From positions 1-64,000 of the forward strand of contig JAAVDA010000012.1 in assembly GCA_014802045.1 (NCBI GenBank): a stretch of 64,000 nucleotides of DNA, in the 5' to 3' direction. The translations under genes and the position numbers were made by a program. The DNA is from Bacteroides sp. Its GTDB lineage: Bacteria; Bacteroidota; Bacteroidia; Bacteroidales; Muribaculaceae. Numbering within the stretch: the stretch's first letter is position 1; each line of letters starts with the position of its first letter. The notes under the pieces are model-generated. The model was given only the letters and a program-made list of their open reading frames with translations. It made no database searches and was not told the origin of the DNA. This document shows positions 8,393 through 34,035 of the stretch, piece by piece.

Positions 8393-10420
8393 TTACCAGT
8401 CGCATTCCACGAATTCAAATTTGCCTTTGCCTACAACCTTAAACTTGATGGTGTAGGGGGTGGTGGTGCCGGTGTAGGCTGAGAAGTTGATGGTGTAGAA
8501 CACGTCAAGTCCGGGCATCACATCGGCATCGGGATGGAGGGCGCTGAGGGCGCCTGGCATCACTTCGGTCTCGAAACGCTTTTTCATGGCTGCCACAATC
8601 TGGTCGTCGGTCATGTCGGCATAGCCGGCGGCATATTGGGTGCGTGCGGCTGAGGGGCGGAGGTCGACGTTGCCTTGATAGGCAGATGTGCCGGAGTAGT
8701 ATTCGTTGTTGCCGTAGGAGGTGACGTAGGTTGCTCCGGTGGGTGTGTCGATGTTGTTTTTAACCCAGTCGACGCAGGCTTGGAAATAGAGTGTGCTGAG
8801 GGGCTGGCTTCTTCCGGCGGGGAGGGTTATGGTGACGTTGGGGTCGTAGATCCATTTACCGCCGGTGCGGACAAACTGTGCGGTCTGGGTTGTGACTCCA
8901 TTGTCGGCAATCCATCCGGTGCCGTCAAATTTGTAGGCGTCGCAGCGTACGGTTGTGGTGGAGGAAGCGTAGTAGAAGTAGACCACGAGCTTGGTGTCGC
9001 CCTCGGCGGCATAGGGGAATGTGCGGCTGAGGTAGATGGGGAGCATTGTGGCGGGAGCTTCGTCTGAGAGGTTGTCGTAGCGCTGTCCCATGAGCTGATA
9101 GTCGGCATGGGATAGGATGGTGTAGCGGGTGTCGGCGCTCCATTTGCTGCCGTTGAATGAGTAGACGGCGTTAACGTTGTCGGAAGCTACGGTCACGGCG
9201 CGGCTTTGTGCTGCGGTGGTGGTTGCGGTGGCTTTCGCGGTTGCTGAGCCTACTTTGGTAACAATGGTGTTGAGGTATTTGCCTTTGCTTGCGATGGCCA
9301 CGACATAGCCTTCGACAGTGACGGTTTCGCCGTCGGTGAAGAGGCTTTTGGTTTCGTCGGATGCTCCGTAGGGGCTGAGCTGTACGGAGGTGCCGTCGAG
9401 GGCGATGTTGATGTAGTTGCCGGAGACGGATACTTTGCCGGTGAAGCGGGCGTAAACAGGCCAGATGGGAGTGGTTGTTTTGGCGAGCGCATCGATTTCG
9501 GCGGCGGTCATCGCTTTGGGTTCGGGATAGGTGACCTCACGGGAGCCGCTCAGAGTGGCGTCGGCGCCACGGGCTATCTGGTAGCCGTTGTTGTAGGTGT
9601 CGATGGTGGAGTTAATGACCACCTGGTCGCCTATCTTGAGGTCGGCATTGTTTGAGGGGGAATAGACAAAGACGGTGCCGGCTTCGTCGGCCACTACGGG
9701 ACCCTGAGTGGAGGTGGCCACGACATATCCGTTGATAGTGATGTCGTCGCCCTTGGCGGGGGAGCCGGTGAGCACGTTGGAGAGGGGGAACTCGGGGGTG
9801 TCGGGCTCGGCCGGGGCTGTAAACACAGGGTCGGTCTGTGAGGTCTGATAGTTGACAATCACCACGTCTCCGCTCTCGGCGTCGGGGTAGGCCTCGGCAA
9901 GAATGGAGGGGAGTGATGCGGCGGCGGTGTGGGAGGGTGCGAAGGCGGGGGTGTAGTTGTTGTCGCTTCCCCAGACTTTCTGATAGTCTTCGTCGGTGAC
10001 GGTGTATCGGAGGGCATTGACGGCTTCTGTCATTCCGGTCGGGAGTGCATCGGCTATGCGGTAAGTGAGTTTCACCGAGGATCCGTCGGATAGGGTGAAG
10101 TAGGGGAACTTCGGGTCGGAGAAGAGAGCGGGGGCGTAGTCGCGGGGTGAGATTTCCTCAGTGAAATATCCTTGTGTGCCCACCGCTGCAAGAGCGGCCT
10201 TGAGGGCATCGCCGGCGAGAGCCTTGTTGGTGGCATTGTCGGCTATGATTTTGTAGTCGTTGGGTGTGAGGGTGTATTCGATGGCCTGCTCATTGGTGAT
10301 GGCGGGTTCTTCAAATCCCTCAAGCTCATGGTCGTTCCACGAGTTGTCGTCGCAGGCGGACAGTATGGCTGGCAGGGCGGCAATTATGACCGCGCGGCTT
10401 ATATATCTGTTGATTTTCAT
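8393..10420 (-). CDS. Surface-type lipoprotein with OB-fold-like (DUF5689-like) domains and repeated modules
   Basis: Lipobox AAALPAILSACDD; central INGYVVATSTQGPVVADEAGTVFVY...GDQVVINSTIDTYNNGYQI resembles Bacteroidota OB-fold proteins; three similar Y-T-x-x-x-x-D-Y modules. Confidence 0.65.
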   Translation of the reverse strand: MKINRYISRAVIIAALPAILSACDDNSWNDHELEGFEEPAITNEQAIEYTLTPNDYKIIADNATNKALAGDALKAALAAVGTQGYFTEEISPRDYAPALFSDPKFPYFTLSDGSSVKLTYRIADALPTGMTEAVNALRYTVTDEDYQKVWGSDNNYTPAFAPSHTAAASLPSILAEAYPDAESGDVVIVNYQTSQTDPVFTAPAEPDTPEFPLSNVLTGSPAKGDDITINGYVVATSTQGPVVADEAGTVFVYSPSNNADLKIGDQVVINSTIDTYNNGYQIARGADATLSGSREVTYPEPKAMTAAEIDALAKTTTPIWPVYARFTGKVSVSGNYINIALDGTSVQLSPYGASDETKSLFTDGETVTVEGYVVAIASKGKYLNTIVTKVGSATAKATATTTAAQSRAVTVASDNVNAVYSFNGSKWSADTRYTILSHADYQLMGQRYDNLSDEAPATMLPIYLSRTFPYAAEGDTKLVVYFYYASSTTTVRCDAYKFDGTGWIADNGVTTQTAQFVRTGGKWIYDPNVTITLPAGRSQPLSTLYFQACVDWVKNNIDTPTGATYVTSYGNNEYYSGTSAYQGNVDLRPSAARTQYAAGYADMTDDQIVAAMKKRFETEVMPGALSALHPDADVMPGLDVFYTINFSAYTGTTTPYTIKFKVVGKGKFEFVECDW

Positions 10421-27851: not shown

Positions 27852-27894
27852 GGGGAAATTAGCAGTTTTTCGCCTCGGCATGGCTATAATTTTG
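27852..27894 (+). promoter_or_regulatory. Promoter P1 of phage-head-like unit 1: GGGGAAATTAGCAG (27852-27865) ... TAATTTTG (27887-27894)
   Basis: 14-bp motif identical to that at 31479-31492 and at nearly the same distance from a TAnnTTTG -7 element. Confidence 0.6.
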
Positions 27895-27926
27895 CAGTGT
27901 GAACACTAATCAACCAGAGTTTATTT

Positions 27927-28304
27927 ATGGAACAAGACCTGAATCAGCCAACCCCCGAAGCAACTTCCCTGCAGCCGGAAGGGACCCCTGCATCCCCTCA
28001 TACCGACTCAACCTCTCCCGAGCCAACCGCCCCAGCTTCTTCAACCGACAATCCACCCGCCTCCTCGCCTCAGAGGCTTTCGGAGGCTGATGCTCTCACC
28101 GCCTCACGCCTCATGGAGCTGCTTTCGCAAGCCGAGGAGCGAGGATATCGCCGCGCACGCCGAGAGATGCAACAATCCTCCTTGCCGGAAACACCCCTCT
28201 GGGGCAACCCAAGACGAGTGGAGAACGACGGCGCATCCGCTCGCGAGACTATGAAAATAGGCGATGATTTCCTGACCCGCATCCGGCCCGCAGTATGGGA
28301 CTAA
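27927..28304 (+). CDS. Small Pro/Ser/Thr-rich protein preceding the capsid-like gene; candidate scaffold-like protein
   Basis: Low-complexity N-terminus, charged C-terminal helix (RLMELLSQAEERGYRRARREMQQ), position directly upstream of the MCP-like gene. Confidence 0.4.
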   Translation: MEQDLNQPTPEATSLQPEGTPASPHTDSTSPEPTAPASSTDNPPASSPQRLSEADALTASRLMELLSQAEERGYRRARREMQQSSLPETPLWGNPRRVENDGASARETMKIGDDFLTRIRPAVWD

Positions 28305-28356
28305 GCCCCGCCCACCGATCAAACTTTTCACTAATCACCAAAAAAACTTACAGTAT

Positions 28357-29607
28357 ATGAACACACTCGTAGCAGGTCAGTCGGGCGGCCGACATGTGAC
28401 CGACGGCCCTCTCACCACCCCCGCCATACGCGAAACCTCACCCGAACTTCTGAGAAATGAAATCGATTCGCGAGTGGTGCGTATCCGCCCGATGGCTACT
28501 CCTGTAGACCAGATTTCGCGCATGATCGGAGCGCGCCACTCTTCGTCGATGGTGGTGGAATATTACTCGGTAGACACCAAGGCTCAGACGGTGAAGATAA
28601 CCGGTTCGCCCGAAATTCTCGATGAACTTCACCCCGACGGTTACAGGCTCTACACAATCAGTGTCGACTCAATAGGAGTGATAGCCCCTACAGACACTCT
28701 CCTCATAGTCGGTTCGTCGGGCACAAACGGCCCCGTGACTCTTTATGTGACAGACCGCACCGAGGCGCGCAACACTTTTCGCGTGATAGCTCTCAACGGT
28801 GCCGACGAGGATGGGGTGAAGGGCTGCATTGACACCGACCTCCGTGGACGCACTCTCGTGAGGATGGGCAGAGCTGCGGCAGAGCTTGATGTGCAGACTT
28901 CTCAGTTTGAGGCTCTTCCGCAAAAAGCTCAAAACTACTGTCAGATATTCAAGGCTCAGATCGAACAGGGCACCTTCACCCGCCTTGCAGCCAAAGAGGT
29001 GGGCTGGAGTTTCAGCGACCAGGAAGAGGTGGCCATCATGGATATGCGTCTCGGCATGGAGAAGAGTTTTCTCTTCGGGGTGCGGGCGCGCATTCAGGCT
29101 CCGGGAGCATCAGACGAAGTGCTCTTCACCGGCGGCATATGGCATCAGGCCGAAACAGATTTCTCCTATTCAGCGGCTGCCTTCGGCCAAGACACTCTGA
29201 TAGATCTCATGCGCCTTGCCTTTACAGGCGACCGTGCCGGTTCGCGGCGCAAGATTCTTCTGGCCGGTAGCGAGCTGATAGCCCGCCTGAATAAGCTCGA
29301 CTACACCCGTGTGGTTTCGGCCGGCGACACCGTTACCCGCTGGGGAATCGACTTCAACGAACTCCGCTCTAAGTTTGGCACTCTCTATGTGGTTCATTCC
29401 GAGGTGTTCGACCAGTGCGACCATGCCGACGACGGTTTCGTGATAGACCCCGAATATCTGGTTAAATACGTGCATCTTCCCTTCCGTGTGGAGCGTATAG
29501 ACCTCAAGAGCTCCGGGGTGCGCAACACCGAAGCCGTCGTGGCCACCGAGGCAAGCTGCATGGCGCTGCGCCATCCGAAGTCGCATGTGCGTGTGACTCT
29601 TGCCTGA
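28357..29607 (+). CDS. Phage major-capsid-like protein (SU10/DUF5309-like)
   Basis: Resembles Bacteroidota HK97-fold MCPs: QNYCQIFKAQIEQGTF, EKSFLFGVRARI, FTGGIWHQAETDF, RKILLAGSELIARL, KFGTLYVVHSEVFDQCDHADDGFVIDPEYLVKYVHLPFRVERIDLKSSGVRNTEAVVATEASCMALRHPKSHVRVTL. Confidence 0.65.
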   Translation: MNTLVAGQSGGRHVTDGPLTTPAIRETSPELLRNEIDSRVVRIRPMATPVDQISRMIGARHSSSMVVEYYSVDTKAQTVKITGSPEILDELHPDGYRLYTISVDSIGVIAPTDTLLIVGSSGTNGPVTLYVTDRTEARNTFRVIALNGADEDGVKGCIDTDLRGRTLVRMGRAAAELDVQTSQFEALPQKAQNYCQIFKAQIEQGTFTRLAAKEVGWSFSDQEEVAIMDMRLGMEKSFLFGVRARIQAPGASDEVLFTGGIWHQAETDFSYSAAAFGQDTLIDLMRLAFTGDRAGSRRKILLAGSELIARLNKLDYTRVVSAGDTVTRWGIDFNELRSKFGTLYVVHSEVFDQCDHADDGFVIDPEYLVKYVHLPFRVERIDLKSSGVRNTEAVVATEASCMALRHPKSHVRVTLA

Positions 29608-29622
29608 CTATCCTGACACCCC

Positions 29623-30183
29623 ATGCCGATGCCTGCTTTTTCCTACACCCTCTCTGAGTCAGAGCTCATAGCCCGACTCCGCCGGCTGCTGTTTATGGAG
29701 CCGGTAGATGAGTCCGTGAGCCGCACCGACTCTCCCGGTGCGCTCCGGCGCATGGAGCTCCAGGTGGCCGATGCCTATATCGACGGCCTCATCTCGCTCG
29801 ATCCGTCTGAATTGCCCCTCACAGATCTCACTCCGGAGGCAGTTCTCTCCAATCCTCTCCCCGGCCAGCCGGCCACACTCATTCTGCCCCCGCGATGTCT
29901 TCGTCCGGTGTCGGTCAGAATGGCCGGCTGGGGTAGGGATGCCACCATTGTTAAGGCCGGGACAGCAGTGGCTCTGGCTCAAGACAACCCGTTCAGCCGC
30001 GGAGGCACCGTCCGCCCTGTGGCCGTAGTGGAGCCGGCGGGAAAACTCACCCTCTACACTCCGCCGCGCAATCTCGCGCCCTCTCTCCTCGCTCTCCTTG
30101 CCATTGCTCTTCCGCCCGACGGACTCTATCCGCTCACCCAGCCCCTCGAACACCACATTCTCAGTCGGCTTGCCTCGCGATAG
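29623..30183 (+). CDS. Hypothetical protein in capsid-like operon; candidate connector/adaptor
   Basis: 16 bp after the MCP-like gene, same strand; no firm family recognised. Confidence 0.35.
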   Translation: MPMPAFSYTLSESELIARLRRLLFMEPVDESVSRTDSPGALRRMELQVADAYIDGLISLDPSELPLTDLTPEAVLSNPLPGQPATLILPPRCLRPVSVRMAGWGRDATIVKAGTAVALAQDNPFSRGGTVRPVAVVEPAGKLTLYTPPRNLAPSLLALLAIALPPDGLYPLTQPLEHHILSRLASR

Positions 30184-30207
30184 CCGGAGGAGCCCCCGGC
30201 TCTCTAC

Positions 30208-30243
30208 AGCCTATGCTGCCCTTTTTGGATAGCATAGGCTTTT
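30208..30243 (+). terminator. Terminator closing phage-head-like unit 1
   Basis: AGCCTATGCT / AGCATAGGCT perfect 10-bp stem followed by TTT. Confidence 0.7.
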
Positions 30244-30345
30244 GTGTTGCCTTGGCTAAAGAGAATTTAATATATAGGTCACTTGCGCTATTATTTTTTT
30301 TGCACTACTTTTGTGAAAATTAAAATTTTAGCGGAGTTGGAGAAA

Positions 30346-31449
30346 ATGAAAAATCGTAGAGCGATCACAAAAGCAATGATTGTGGGAGGGCTTGCCCTCC
30401 TGCTATCTTGTTCAGGAAATAAGGAAAAGCGTGCGGAGGGTGCTGCCCCTGTAGCCTCTATTCCTGTCGATACAGTTGAGCGGGAGATTCCACCCTGCAA
30501 GAGGCTGAAAATCTCAACTTCGGGCGCATTGCCTATAAAGTCGCTGCCTGTGGTTGAAACGATAGAGTTCCCGGACACGACAGAATATTTTATCGGAGTG
30601 CCGTCATGTGTGGAGGTGAGAGGTGACACCATCTTTGCCATAGACAGCAGTAAAGCTCCGGGCTTTTATGCCTATCGGCGTGATGGCTCCCAGATATTTG
30701 CCTACACCTCCACCGGTCAGGGTCCGGAGGATTTTATGGTACTTAGAAATCTGAATGTAACTGATACTGAGCTGAGCGCTTTTGATGACGGTCTGTGCGG
30801 TATTTTTATAATTGATAAGAATGGCGATTTTGTTCGCACGGTTAAGTGCCCGGTCTACTCGCTTGCGGCATCAATTTCAGACGCGGGTGATATGTGGGTT
30901 GATTTCAGTAATTTTGATGGCATGATGGATGATATCAAATTGGGCTGGGCTCCTCCCGGCGGCCGACCGGACTCTCTGGTTACTGTCCTCCCTATTCCCG
31001 AACATCTTAAAGGTATCTATGCGTCGGGTATTCGTCCTCTTGTTCGCATTTCTGCAAACGAATGGATTTTCACTCCCTCATTCGAACGATATGTCTACAC
31101 TTTGAAAGACGGTAAAGCTTATCCCCGATATGAACTTGATTTCGGCAACCTTTGGTGGGACGACGAGAAGATGTCGAAAATGGCTCACAGCAATGACTGG
31201 GCTGTCCAATTGCAGGATTTTCCGATTCAACCTATGTATATTCAGGAAAATGAGCGATGGTTTGTGGTTGGATTTGCTGTAAATAGGGATAAGAGATATG
31301 TGTATGTTTACGACAAATTGGGCGGTGATTCACGCACCTTTATAGATCATCCCAGAAAGTACCTCCATCCGATAGCCTTGGATTGCAACGATTTGTTTAT
31401 GAACTGTGTGGATAATTCCAATCTCGAAGTGCTCCGCCTTGCGGACTGA
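30346..31449 (+). CDS. 6-bladed beta-propeller lipoprotein
   Basis: Lipobox LALLLSCSG; VETIEFPDTTEYFIGVPSCVEVRGDTIFAID...GQGPEDFMVLRNLNV as in Bacteroidota 6-bladed beta-propeller proteins; ATG 30346 preferred over track start 30283. Confidence 0.75.
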   Translation: MKNRRAITKAMIVGGLALLLSCSGNKEKRAEGAAPVASIPVDTVEREIPPCKRLKISTSGALPIKSLPVVETIEFPDTTEYFIGVPSCVEVRGDTIFAIDSSKAPGFYAYRRDGSQIFAYTSTGQGPEDFMVLRNLNVTDTELSAFDDGLCGIFIIDKNGDFVRTVKCPVYSLAASISDAGDMWVDFSNFDGMMDDIKLGWAPPGGRPDSLVTVLPIPEHLKGIYASGIRPLVRISANEWIFTPSFERYVYTLKDGKAYPRYELDFGNLWWDDEKMSKMAHSNDWAVQLQDFPIQPMYIQENERWFVVGFAVNRDKRYVYVYDKLGGDSRTFIDHPRKYLHPIALDCNDLFMNCVDNSNLEVLRLAD

Positions 31450-31478
31450 GCGGAGTTCATCCGGTTTTGGGGGCGGAT

Positions 31479-31522
31479 GGGGAAATTAGCAGCCGGAAGA
31501 GGAGTGGAGGGGAGTATCTTTG
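31479..31522 (+). promoter_or_regulatory. Promoter P2 of phage-head-like unit 2: GGGGAAATTAGCAG (31479-31492) ... TATCTTTG (31515-31522)
   Basis: Perfect 14-bp match to P1 motif, spacing to -7 element 22 nt versus 21 nt in P1. Confidence 0.6.
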
Positions 31523-31536
31523 CATAAAAAACAGTT

Positions 31537-32220
31537 ATGCAATCATCACCCCTCGAAATCGCTCTCTCTGCCTGGCAATCAACCGCTCCGTTCCGCGCCA
31601 ACCGTCAGCGCTATAAGCGTTACACCTATGGACGGCAGTGGGACGATATAATCACCTCGCCCGATGGTGTGGCGCTCACCGAAGGTGCTTATGCCGAGAA
31701 ATGTGGTCATCGCCCGCTCACCAACAATCTTATCCGGCAGATGGTAAAGACTGTCATAGGCCTCTGGCGGCGCGACATGGCTCCCTCTCATGGTGGCACC
31801 GACACGGCAATAGCCCGACGCAACCATCTCGATGAGCTTGATGCTCGCACCCTCGAAGAGTTTCTCATATCGGGGTGTGCGGTGCAGAGGGTTGTGACCG
31901 AGAGGCGTATGGGTGGCACAGGTGTATGGGTAGACCTCGTGAGTCCGTCGCGATTTTTCTTTTCGCCTGCCACAGACCCGCGCGGTTGCGATATGGAGGT
32001 AGTCGGTATGGCCCACGATATGAGCATGCGCGAGGCGATGGTGAGGTTCGGGGGCGAGGATGGCTCACGGCGCAAAAGAGTGGAGCGCATCTATTCAGGA
32101 GTGGAGCCCCGGCTGTTTGCGTCGGTCGATATGCAGTCGGTGGCCGCATCTCTTCTTTCGGCACCGGCGGGAAGATGCCGCGCCATTGAGCTCTGGACGC
32201 TCGAAAGCCGGCTTATATGA
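31537..32220 (+). CDS. Phage portal-like protein, N-terminal part
   Basis: ALSAWQSTAPFRANRQRYKRYTYGRQWDDI...PLTNNLIRQMVKTVIGLWR...FLISGCAVQRVVTERR...VWVDLVSPSRFFF resembles Bacteroidota phage portal proteins. Confidence 0.6.
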   Translation: MQSSPLEIALSAWQSTAPFRANRQRYKRYTYGRQWDDIITSPDGVALTEGAYAEKCGHRPLTNNLIRQMVKTVIGLWRRDMAPSHGGTDTAIARRNHLDELDARTLEEFLISGCAVQRVVTERRMGGTGVWVDLVSPSRFFFSPATDPRGCDMEVVGMAHDMSMREAMVRFGGEDGSRRKRVERIYSGVEPRLFASVDMQSVAASLLSAPAGRCRAIELWTLESRLI

Positions 32221-32921
32221 TCCGCTGCTATGACCCGGTGGAGTGGGGAGGCTTCCTGCTTCCGGCGTCGGCCGCCCCCCGGATTGAGAAGGAAAACCGC
32301 GGGAGGGCCGAAGAGGCGCGCATTGCTTTCAGAGAATTCGACACCGTGAGATGGCACTGCCGCTGGCTCGCTCCCACAGGCGAACTGCTCGACAGCTACG
32401 ACTCCCCGTGGCCCCACGGAGGCCACCCATTTGCCGTGAAACTCTATCCGATGACCGACGGAGAGATTCATCCGTTTGTGGAAGATGTCATAGATCAGCA
32501 GCGCACCATAAACCGTCTCATCACTATGCTCGACACCATGCTCGGTGTCAGCGCCAAGGGAGCTCTGCTCTTTCCGCTGCGCGCACTCCCACCCGGATAT
32601 AGGCTTCCCGACATTGCGGCAGCGTGGAGCATTCCGGGAGCGGTGATTCCTTTTGACACTGCCGACACAAATCTCCGCCCCATGCAGGTGAGCGGTTCGT
32701 CAGGCGATTGCGGAGCAGCCTCCCTGCTATCTATGGAGATGAAGCTTTTCGAGCAGATTTCGGGTGTGAACGGTGCGATTCAGGGGCGTGAGGTAACGGC
32801 CAACACCTCGGCTGCGCTCTTTGATGCGCGCACCCGCAATGCCACCACCGCGCTCATCGATTTGCTCGAATCATTCGATTCGTTTGTAGAGGAAAGAAAT
32901 CGCCTCATTAAGCAATCTTAA
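32217..32921 (+). CDS. Phage portal-like protein, C-terminal part
   Basis: HPFAVKLYPMTDGEIHPFVEDVIDQQRTINRLITMLDTMLGVSAKGALLFP...LFEQISGVNGAIQGREVTANTSAALFDARTRNATTALIDLLESFDSFVEERN; starts at ATGA overlapping the stop of the preceding ORF. Confidence 0.6.
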   Translation: MIRCYDPVEWGGFLLPASAAPRIEKENRGRAEEARIAFREFDTVRWHCRWLAPTGELLDSYDSPWPHGGHPFAVKLYPMTDGEIHPFVEDVIDQQRTINRLITMLDTMLGVSAKGALLFPLRALPPGYRLPDIAAAWSIPGAVIPFDTADTNLRPMQVSGSSGDCGAASLLSMEMKLFEQISGVNGAIQGREVTANTSAALFDARTRNATTALIDLLESFDSFVEERNRLIKQS

Positions 32922-32991: not shown

Positions 32992-33558
32992 ATGACTATG
33001 CAACATCCATCTTCCTGCAATCTCGCCACTCTGCGCGACCGCGATTTTCTCGCAGCCTGCCGCAGGGTGCTCGCCGGCCAGCGGCGCACAGACCTCACGG
33101 CAGCCGAGGTTGCGCGCATGGCGGCCAACTCTCCCGCTCCATCCTACTATCTCACCTATGAATATGCCCGACGTATGCTGAGCGAACGGCGCAGGGGCAT
33201 GATCACATCGCGCAACACTCTGGGTTCAGACCCCTCGCAATCTCCGCATCACTCCGGTAGCCCGATCGAGCGGCGCCGTGAGGAGATAGCCGGAAAAGTG
33301 AAGACCCTCATGGAGCGCACACCCGGATTGAAGATGGGCGCCGCTCTCAGCCGGGTGCTTGCCGGGCCGGCATCATCATTCTTTCTCGCTCCCGACACTG
33401 CCCGGAAGCTTTTTGCCACACTTCGACGTGGCAGCGCGGCTCGCCGCCATTCTCAAAGCGTGGCGCCTCATCTTTCCGCCCGGCCCCTGCGCAGCCACAC
33501 ACCGCTCCGCCGCCCCCTTCTGCCCAATTCGGCTGCCGGCCAGCTCATTCTCCGATAG
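32992..33558 (+). CDS. Hypothetical protein with internally duplicated helical module
   Basis: AANSPAPSYYLTYEYARRMLSERRRG and LAGPASSFFLAPDTARKLFATLRRG are clear internal paralogues; ATG 32992 chosen over 32962. Confidence 0.55.
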   Translation: MTMQHPSSCNLATLRDRDFLAACRRVLAGQRRTDLTAAEVARMAANSPAPSYYLTYEYARRMLSERRRGMITSRNTLGSDPSQSPHHSGSPIERRREEIAGKVKTLMERTPGLKMGAALSRVLAGPASSFFLAPDTARKLFATLRRGSAARRHSQSVAPHLSARPLRSHTPLRRPLLPNSAAGQLILR

Positions 33559-33600: not shown

Positions 33601-34035
33601 ATGTTTACCATATCCCTTTCGCTCAGTGCTATCTGCGCTGAAATCCTTGCCGAATCGGCTCTGCGTCATCATCTGCAGCCCTCCACCCCCGCTCCGCTCA
33701 CATCCGACTCCACCGATGCGCTCCGCACTCTTATAACGGCCGCATTTGCCTCTATCTGCACAGATCTCGGGCCGCTGGCGGTGAGTGCCGACATATCATC
33801 AGACGGCGAGCTACTTCAGCTCACCATAGACGGCAACCCGCAGTCGGCTCAACAGTTGCGGCTTGCAATCGAACACCTCTTAGCCCTCAGGGTGATGACC
33901 CGCGCCTATGCATCGGCCGACAGCTCTCTGGCAGCCTCCCTCTCTTCGAGCGCAGCCTCCCTTCTGCGCTCGCTTGCAGCCACTATCTCATCTTCCGCTC
34001 CCGACATTCCGGTTATCACTCCGCGCTTCTACTGA
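33601..34035 (+). CDS. Hypothetical protein, last gene of phage-head-like unit 2
   Basis: ORF in series after the duplicated-module gene; no firm family recognised. Confidence 0.45.
   Translation: MFTISLSLSAICAEILAESALRHHLQPSTPAPLTSDSTDALRTLITAAFASICTDLGPLAVSADISSDGELLQLTIDGNPQSAQQLRLAIEHLLALRVMTRAYASADSSLAASLSSSAASLLRSLAATISSSAPDIPVITPRFY

Follow-up and report, generated by a model that had tools for sequence, protein, structure and literature searches.

Gene transfer agents (GTAs) of Alphaproteobacteria are switched on by activators with several targets. GafA, the activator of RcGTA, acts on the GTA cluster promoter, on its own promoter and on the lysis cassette (PMC6363796), and GafY acts on the GTA cluster, gafYZ and 18 further sites (PMC11150451). 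Among gut bacteria, the podovirus-like FpGTA of Faecalibacterium is a single 10.5-kb operon in Bacillota, and lateral transduction rather than GTAs is reported to be the prominent packaging mode in Bacteroidota (PMC12946183); our literature search found no GTA described for Bacteroidota. Ordinary sigma-ABfr promoters of Bacteroidetes have TAnnTTTG at -7 and TTTG at -33 (PMC7366714). Here we describe a promoter element that is shared at a fixed geometry by unlinked phage-like loci of one genome, changes its letters from genome to genome and is used by other genes as well.

The promoter element of the window

The window, by which we mean the whole 64-kb stretch of DNA analyzed, contains a phage-like head module in two transcription units, each of which starts with the same 14-mer followed by a -7 element:

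27852..27865, + strand, element copy 1, GGGGAAATTAGCAG, exact match
27887..27894, + strand, -7 element TAATTTTG of the scaffold/capsid operon, 21 nt after element copy 1
31479..31492, + strand, element copy 2, GGGGAAATTAGCAG, exact match
31515..31522, + strand, -7 element TATCTTTG of the portal operon, 22 nt after element copy 2

The ATGs behind these -7 elements are at 27927 (scaffold-like gene) and 31537 (portal gene). The original prediction described the two copies as identical and the beta-propeller gene between the units as having its own promoter lacking the motif; on re-reading both observations are exact (the latter promoter is TACTTTTG, about 30306). Of the window's TAnnTTTG sites, 25 fall outside ORFs, and of these just the two belonging to the head units have the element. 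A repeated 14-mer is by itself weak evidence. Because the + strand of the window contains 125 recurring 14-mers, significance was tested at the scale of the whole genome (G000; 2.22 Mb, 37 contigs, 76% complete), using pattern searches with the reversed motif as control. Exact copies of GGGGAAATTAGCAG number 4 (versus 0 in the control), copies with up to two mismatches 20 (versus 2) and occurrences of AAATTAGC-N20-26-TAnnTTTG 10 (versus 0), and the genome-wide search for motif plus TAnnTTTG that the original prediction called for returned 18 sites in degenerate form versus 0. When no more than one mismatch is allowed, almost every site lies 20–22 nt before a TAnnTTTG. The element is a real promoter element, beyond chance.

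Relative to the TA of the -7 box, the window motif spans -35 to -22 and includes no TTTG; across 333 TAnnTTTG promoters, mostly from loci of relatives, the usual -33 TTG occupies -23 to -21. The two head promoters thus have the TAnnTTTG of ordinary sigma-ABfr promoters at -7 and the element instead of TTTG or TTG at -33. Head-operon promoters of relatives are also depleted in TTG at -33 (7/52 vs. 106/301 general promoters; P = 0.002).

The head operon and its second promoter

The genes of the module are as follows:

27927..28304, + strand, scaffold-like protein, 125 aa, assigned by synteny; homologues 29–40% identical in closer relatives
28357..29607, + strand, HK97-fold major capsid protein (MCP), SU10_MCP / phrog_26635 (Pfam 3.7e-51, PHROG 4.5e-81)
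29623..30183, + strand, head-tail connector-like protein, assigned by synteny between capsid and portal
30346..31449, + strand, 6-bladed beta-propeller lipoprotein-like gene (DUF5128; Pfam 9.5e-18), inserted between connector and portal
31537..32220, + strand, portal protein, N-terminal part (phrog_156 4e-11), frame broken after ...ESRLI
32217..32921, + strand, portal protein, C-terminal part (ATGA overlap; phrog_156 2e-19, P22_portal 4e-10)
32998..33558, + strand, gene h, two repeated 3-helix domains (AlphaFold pLDDT 83)
33601..34035, + strand, gene i, small head-operon protein with syntenic homologues in relatives and no family match

The scaffold-like protein has no Pfam or PHROG match, and the connector-like protein has no family match and weak homologues in six viral contigs. 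Together, the P22-like portal and the SU10-type capsid suggest a short tail. Gene h is homologous to gp9 of phage BS-TP4, which adjoins the large-terminase gene (TerL) of that phage, and has no convincing fold match in the PDB. Because its phage homologue lies beside TerL, gene h is more likely a candidate for the small terminase subunit; as a regulator it was rejected on the same two grounds.

The original prediction placed the motif before both halves of the module. Both units do have it here, but in the 14 relatives checked the module is one continuous operon: the beta-propeller gene is absent from the connector-portal gap, portal closely follows connector and the gap contains no TAnnTTTG. 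Because of this arrangement in relatives, the second element copy is, as judged from these loci, a derived feature, and an element-bearing portal promoter was seen in the window genome only. A new portal promoter with an identical element fits selection keeping both halves under one control, although this is a single case and chance acquisition is possible. The portal itself is one ORF in 12 relatives and two ORFs in the window (31537-32921). A conserved two-gene fission was rejected given the single ORF of relatives, and the split is either a real frameshift/fission or an assembly error. Compared with relatives the portal has a broken frame here, so the head module of this genome may be impaired, or the assembly may be wrong.

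Targets within and between genomes

Phage-like genes dominate the protein-coding sites of the element in G000. It precedes TerL (phrog_2) three times, in near-identical copies at three contig ends that each have an element promoter (L143:13608-14843, L144:12900-13229 and L141:1-333). It also precedes the terminase-linked gene Y, a holin-like gene and two members of a family, X, with no known domain. Gene Y (716 aa) has no family match, and only its position makes it a candidate tail protein. The holin-like gene matches phrog_20732, scores 22.0 bits for Phage_holin_4_1 (Pfam cut-off 22.2) and has the -7 box TAATTTAG. Further sites precede panC and seven copies of a noncoding leader-like repeat. 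A search of the G000 sites for a regulator via autoregulation found no regulator-like gene. Family X is multi-copy in genome G024 and present in only 6/61 genomes; a reverse transcriptase gene adjoins its first member (loci L145:7447-8499 and 8586-9698; L150:1561-2556), and a G000 site near a reverse transcriptase gene has no TAnnTTTG at the right distance.

Identical copies could instead stem from copying of promoter DNA by recombination or mobile elements, and be kept by recency and not by regulation. The G000 terminase copies are recent duplicates of this kind (96–98% identical over 110 aa, two of them with identical promoter spacers; relatives mostly have one copy), repeats are present at G000 contig ends and the portal promoter is new. 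Yet the sequence outside the element differs among the head, Y, holin and panC promoters, and element matching is seen independently in many genomes whose letters differ, so we regard copying as an improbable explanation.

Most genomes of the genus have homologues of the capsid, terminase and holin genes, usually in single copy and on different contigs. The MCP is present in 29/34 and TerL in 30/34 genus members, with most absences in incomplete genomes, indicating stable inheritance by the clade in a host context, not a mobile prophage. Capsid ORFs of relatives are open. No TerL, Y or holin gene lies within 10 kb of the MCP at 80 loci. The neighbors of the chromosomal phage-like genes are housekeeping genes, and in the five relatives with wide terminase regions the terminase directly follows Y, again among housekeeping genes.

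The exact 14-mer is absent from the orthologous capsid loci of relatives, but most of these loci retain a TAnnTTTG ahead of the scaffold gene, with a lineage-typical element. Conservation at orthologous loci, which the original prediction named as a check, therefore fails for the letters and holds for position and for matching within a genome. For example, in genome G008 one 21-mer, GTATAGGCCAAATTCGCAGAT, precedes all three of the capsid, Y and holin genes; the phage-gene elements are of ATTTTGGGATC type in G007 and CGTCC.ATTTTGCT in G036, and the capsid element of Paramuribaculum intestinale DSM 100749 (L022) is GCGACAAACGCGCAG. A core TT (-30 to -28) is common to all lineages. A dyad-symmetric operator was considered and rejected: G014 has almost perfect symmetry (GTGACAAATTAGTCAC), but the other lineages show none.

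We quantified matching as identity over 18 positions between the elements of unlinked promoters, permuting genome labels 20000 times. Identity within genomes exceeded the permuted mean for MCP-holin (10.95/18 vs. 8.09, n = 20), MCP-Y (11.06/18 vs. 7.82, n = 18) and holin-Y (12.0/18 vs. 7.77, n = 14), each with 0/20000. Identity to the capsid element of at least 12/18 was found for 19/38 phage-gene pairs versus 3/130 other promoters of the same genomes (P = 8e-12). Some within-genome matching is also seen in the spacers that separate element and -7 box (z 2.4–4.1), at a lower level than in the element, so composition contributes. Roughly half of the phage-gene pairs do not reach 12/18, and in G009, G014, G017 and G028 the capsid element mismatches one or both of the others. 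Because unlinked phage genes of one genome share an element that drifts, it looks like a regulator site and not a private promoter quirk, and the matching points to one shared, evolving control system for unlinked phage-derived genes. Within-genome matching of drifting promoter elements thus links such genes functionally without recourse to expression data, and can be used to find missing parts (tail, endolysin, regulator) in each genome.

Use of the element is not confined to phage-like genes. Searched with its own element, G008 has 32 exact copies, nearly all promoter-placed; about 28 bp of the element hardly vary there, and 21 nt separate it from the -7 box. Three of these sites stand before phage operons, several before leader RNAs and more than 20 before housekeeping or other genes (carB, purC, dut, pnp, glyS and a parA-like gene among them, identified by eye from translations). 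With most sites in this last class, the regulon of G008 is not phage-specific. The element of G011 gives 20 sites with at most one mismatch (vs. 0–1 in the control). The capsid and holin genes have such a site, as do an endolysin-like gene of the Amidase_2 type and a family of about 11 paralogous small proteins. Every one of these paralogues (KTITLTIDEL...EKAERLARQREQRRQRKQQ; L314-L316, L318-L322, L327-L329) is under the G011 element, and the family has no convincing Pfam match.

The original prediction inferred a regulator dedicated to the head operons. Within the window the element does stand at the two head units only, and phage-like genes prevail among the protein-coding sites of G000, but the same element there serves terminase, Y, holin, X, panC and leader RNAs, while in G008 it serves housekeeping genes and in G011 an unrelated 11-copy family. 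The claim is too narrow, and a regulator solely for head operons is highly improbable. What survives of the idea that the two head operons form one regulon is the common element and its fixed geometry, not exclusivity to head genes; and unrelated promoters do contain the motif to a degree, namely those of panC and the leader RNAs in G000 and of the more than 20 other genes in G008.

The multi-copy leader-like transcripts under the element (L005, L009, L010, L012, L151 and L153 in G000; L262, L263, L265, L273, L279, L284, L286 and L341-L343 in G008) consist of a variable long hairpin and then a nearly constant tail, GCGAACATTGACATATTG. The tail resembles a boxA-like sequence, CGAACATTGA, of the G008 rRNA leader, and several of the transcripts are followed by no ORF. 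A known RNA family or tRNA was rejected as their identity, with no match at the Rfam gathering score and no tRNA found.

A further possibility is that the housekeeping sigma factor or RNA polymerase itself reads a lineage-specific upstream variant of the core promoter (-33 or UP-like), giving a strong promoter of constitutive type with no separate activator. The constant spacing to TAnnTTTG would be expected, sigma/RNAP contact could explain the universal core TT, and the housekeeping targets of G008 are in keeping with it. However, the element has a counterpart in no more than about 2% of the other promoters compared (the 3/130 above). It lies upstream of the usual TTG position, is nearly invariant over up to 28 bp in G008 and is missing from the rRNA promoter of that genome. 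The last observation also led us to reject a strong rRNA-type promoter element. We consider the sigma/RNAP variant unlikely, though it accounts for part of the data.

On balance we favor reading the element as the site of a fast-drifting trans-acting activator whose core regulon is a dispersed domesticated phage (GTA-like) system. The element would be an upstream promoter element of about 14–20 bp whose end lies about 21 nt from TAnnTTTG and which sits just ahead of, and partly covers, the place of the usual -33 box. A sequence-specific protein would bind it and help the housekeeping sigma factor start transcription at promoters without a good -33 TTG. An activator beside sigma suits the data because the element overlaps -33, the head promoters are depleted in TTG and the rRNA promoter of G008 has no element. 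Its recognition sequence would drift quickly between species, with the sites following. Core targets would be scaffold-capsid-connector-portal-h-i, Y-large terminase and holin (with an endolysin in one genome); the element would also serve leader RNAs and multi-copy families, as well as many housekeeping genes in some species.

Comparison with gene transfer agents and phages

A more tentative proposal, to which we assign slightly less than an even chance, is that Muribaculaceae and relatives contain a GTA-like system of Bacteroidota: a short-tailed phage module spread over unlinked loci, under one activator whose site is rewritten per species, and whose regulon other multi-copy families and leader RNAs have joined. 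Head, packaging and lysis genes would be switched on together as in GTAs, and the phage-derived set may produce particles. Phage-derived capsid, portal and terminase genes are found in the chromosome under purifying selection (dN/dS 0.04–0.13 between close relatives for the capsid, the one gene tested; the window portal is frame-broken). Lysis-type genes are represented by the holin-like match just below the Pfam cut-off and by Amidase_2 in G011. If the proposal is correct, a capsid, terminase and lysis set that is controlled as a unit and widespread among abundant commensals would offer gut bacteria a new way of exchanging genes.

Bacteroides phages BF1-TP2, BS-TP4 and BKO1-TP3 and viral contigs have homologous MCP (36%), portal (34–46%), TerL (37%) and h (25%). 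In these phages capsid, portal, terminase and h adjoin, whereas the chromosomal family is dispersed among housekeeping genes. The promoters share an identical -7 element with sigma-ABfr promoters and differ from them in having a long, species-specific element that ends about 21 nt before the -7 box and no -33 TTTG. RcGTA and CcGTA of Alphaproteobacteria (GafA; GafY-GafZ with IHF) likewise consist of chromosomal phage-derived genes, with one activator that also acts at the lysis promoter or at many sites. Since GafA and GafY act at several places including lysis genes, a site list of the size found here is what a GTA activator might show. Unlike those systems, the present one, whose element is defined by sequence, belongs to Bacteroidota and has its head, packaging and holin genes at separate loci. 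It resembles FpGTA in its gut-commensal host, its near-universal presence in the genus and its podovirus-like inventory, and differs from that single operon of Bacillota in being a dispersed set of genes in Bacteroidota.
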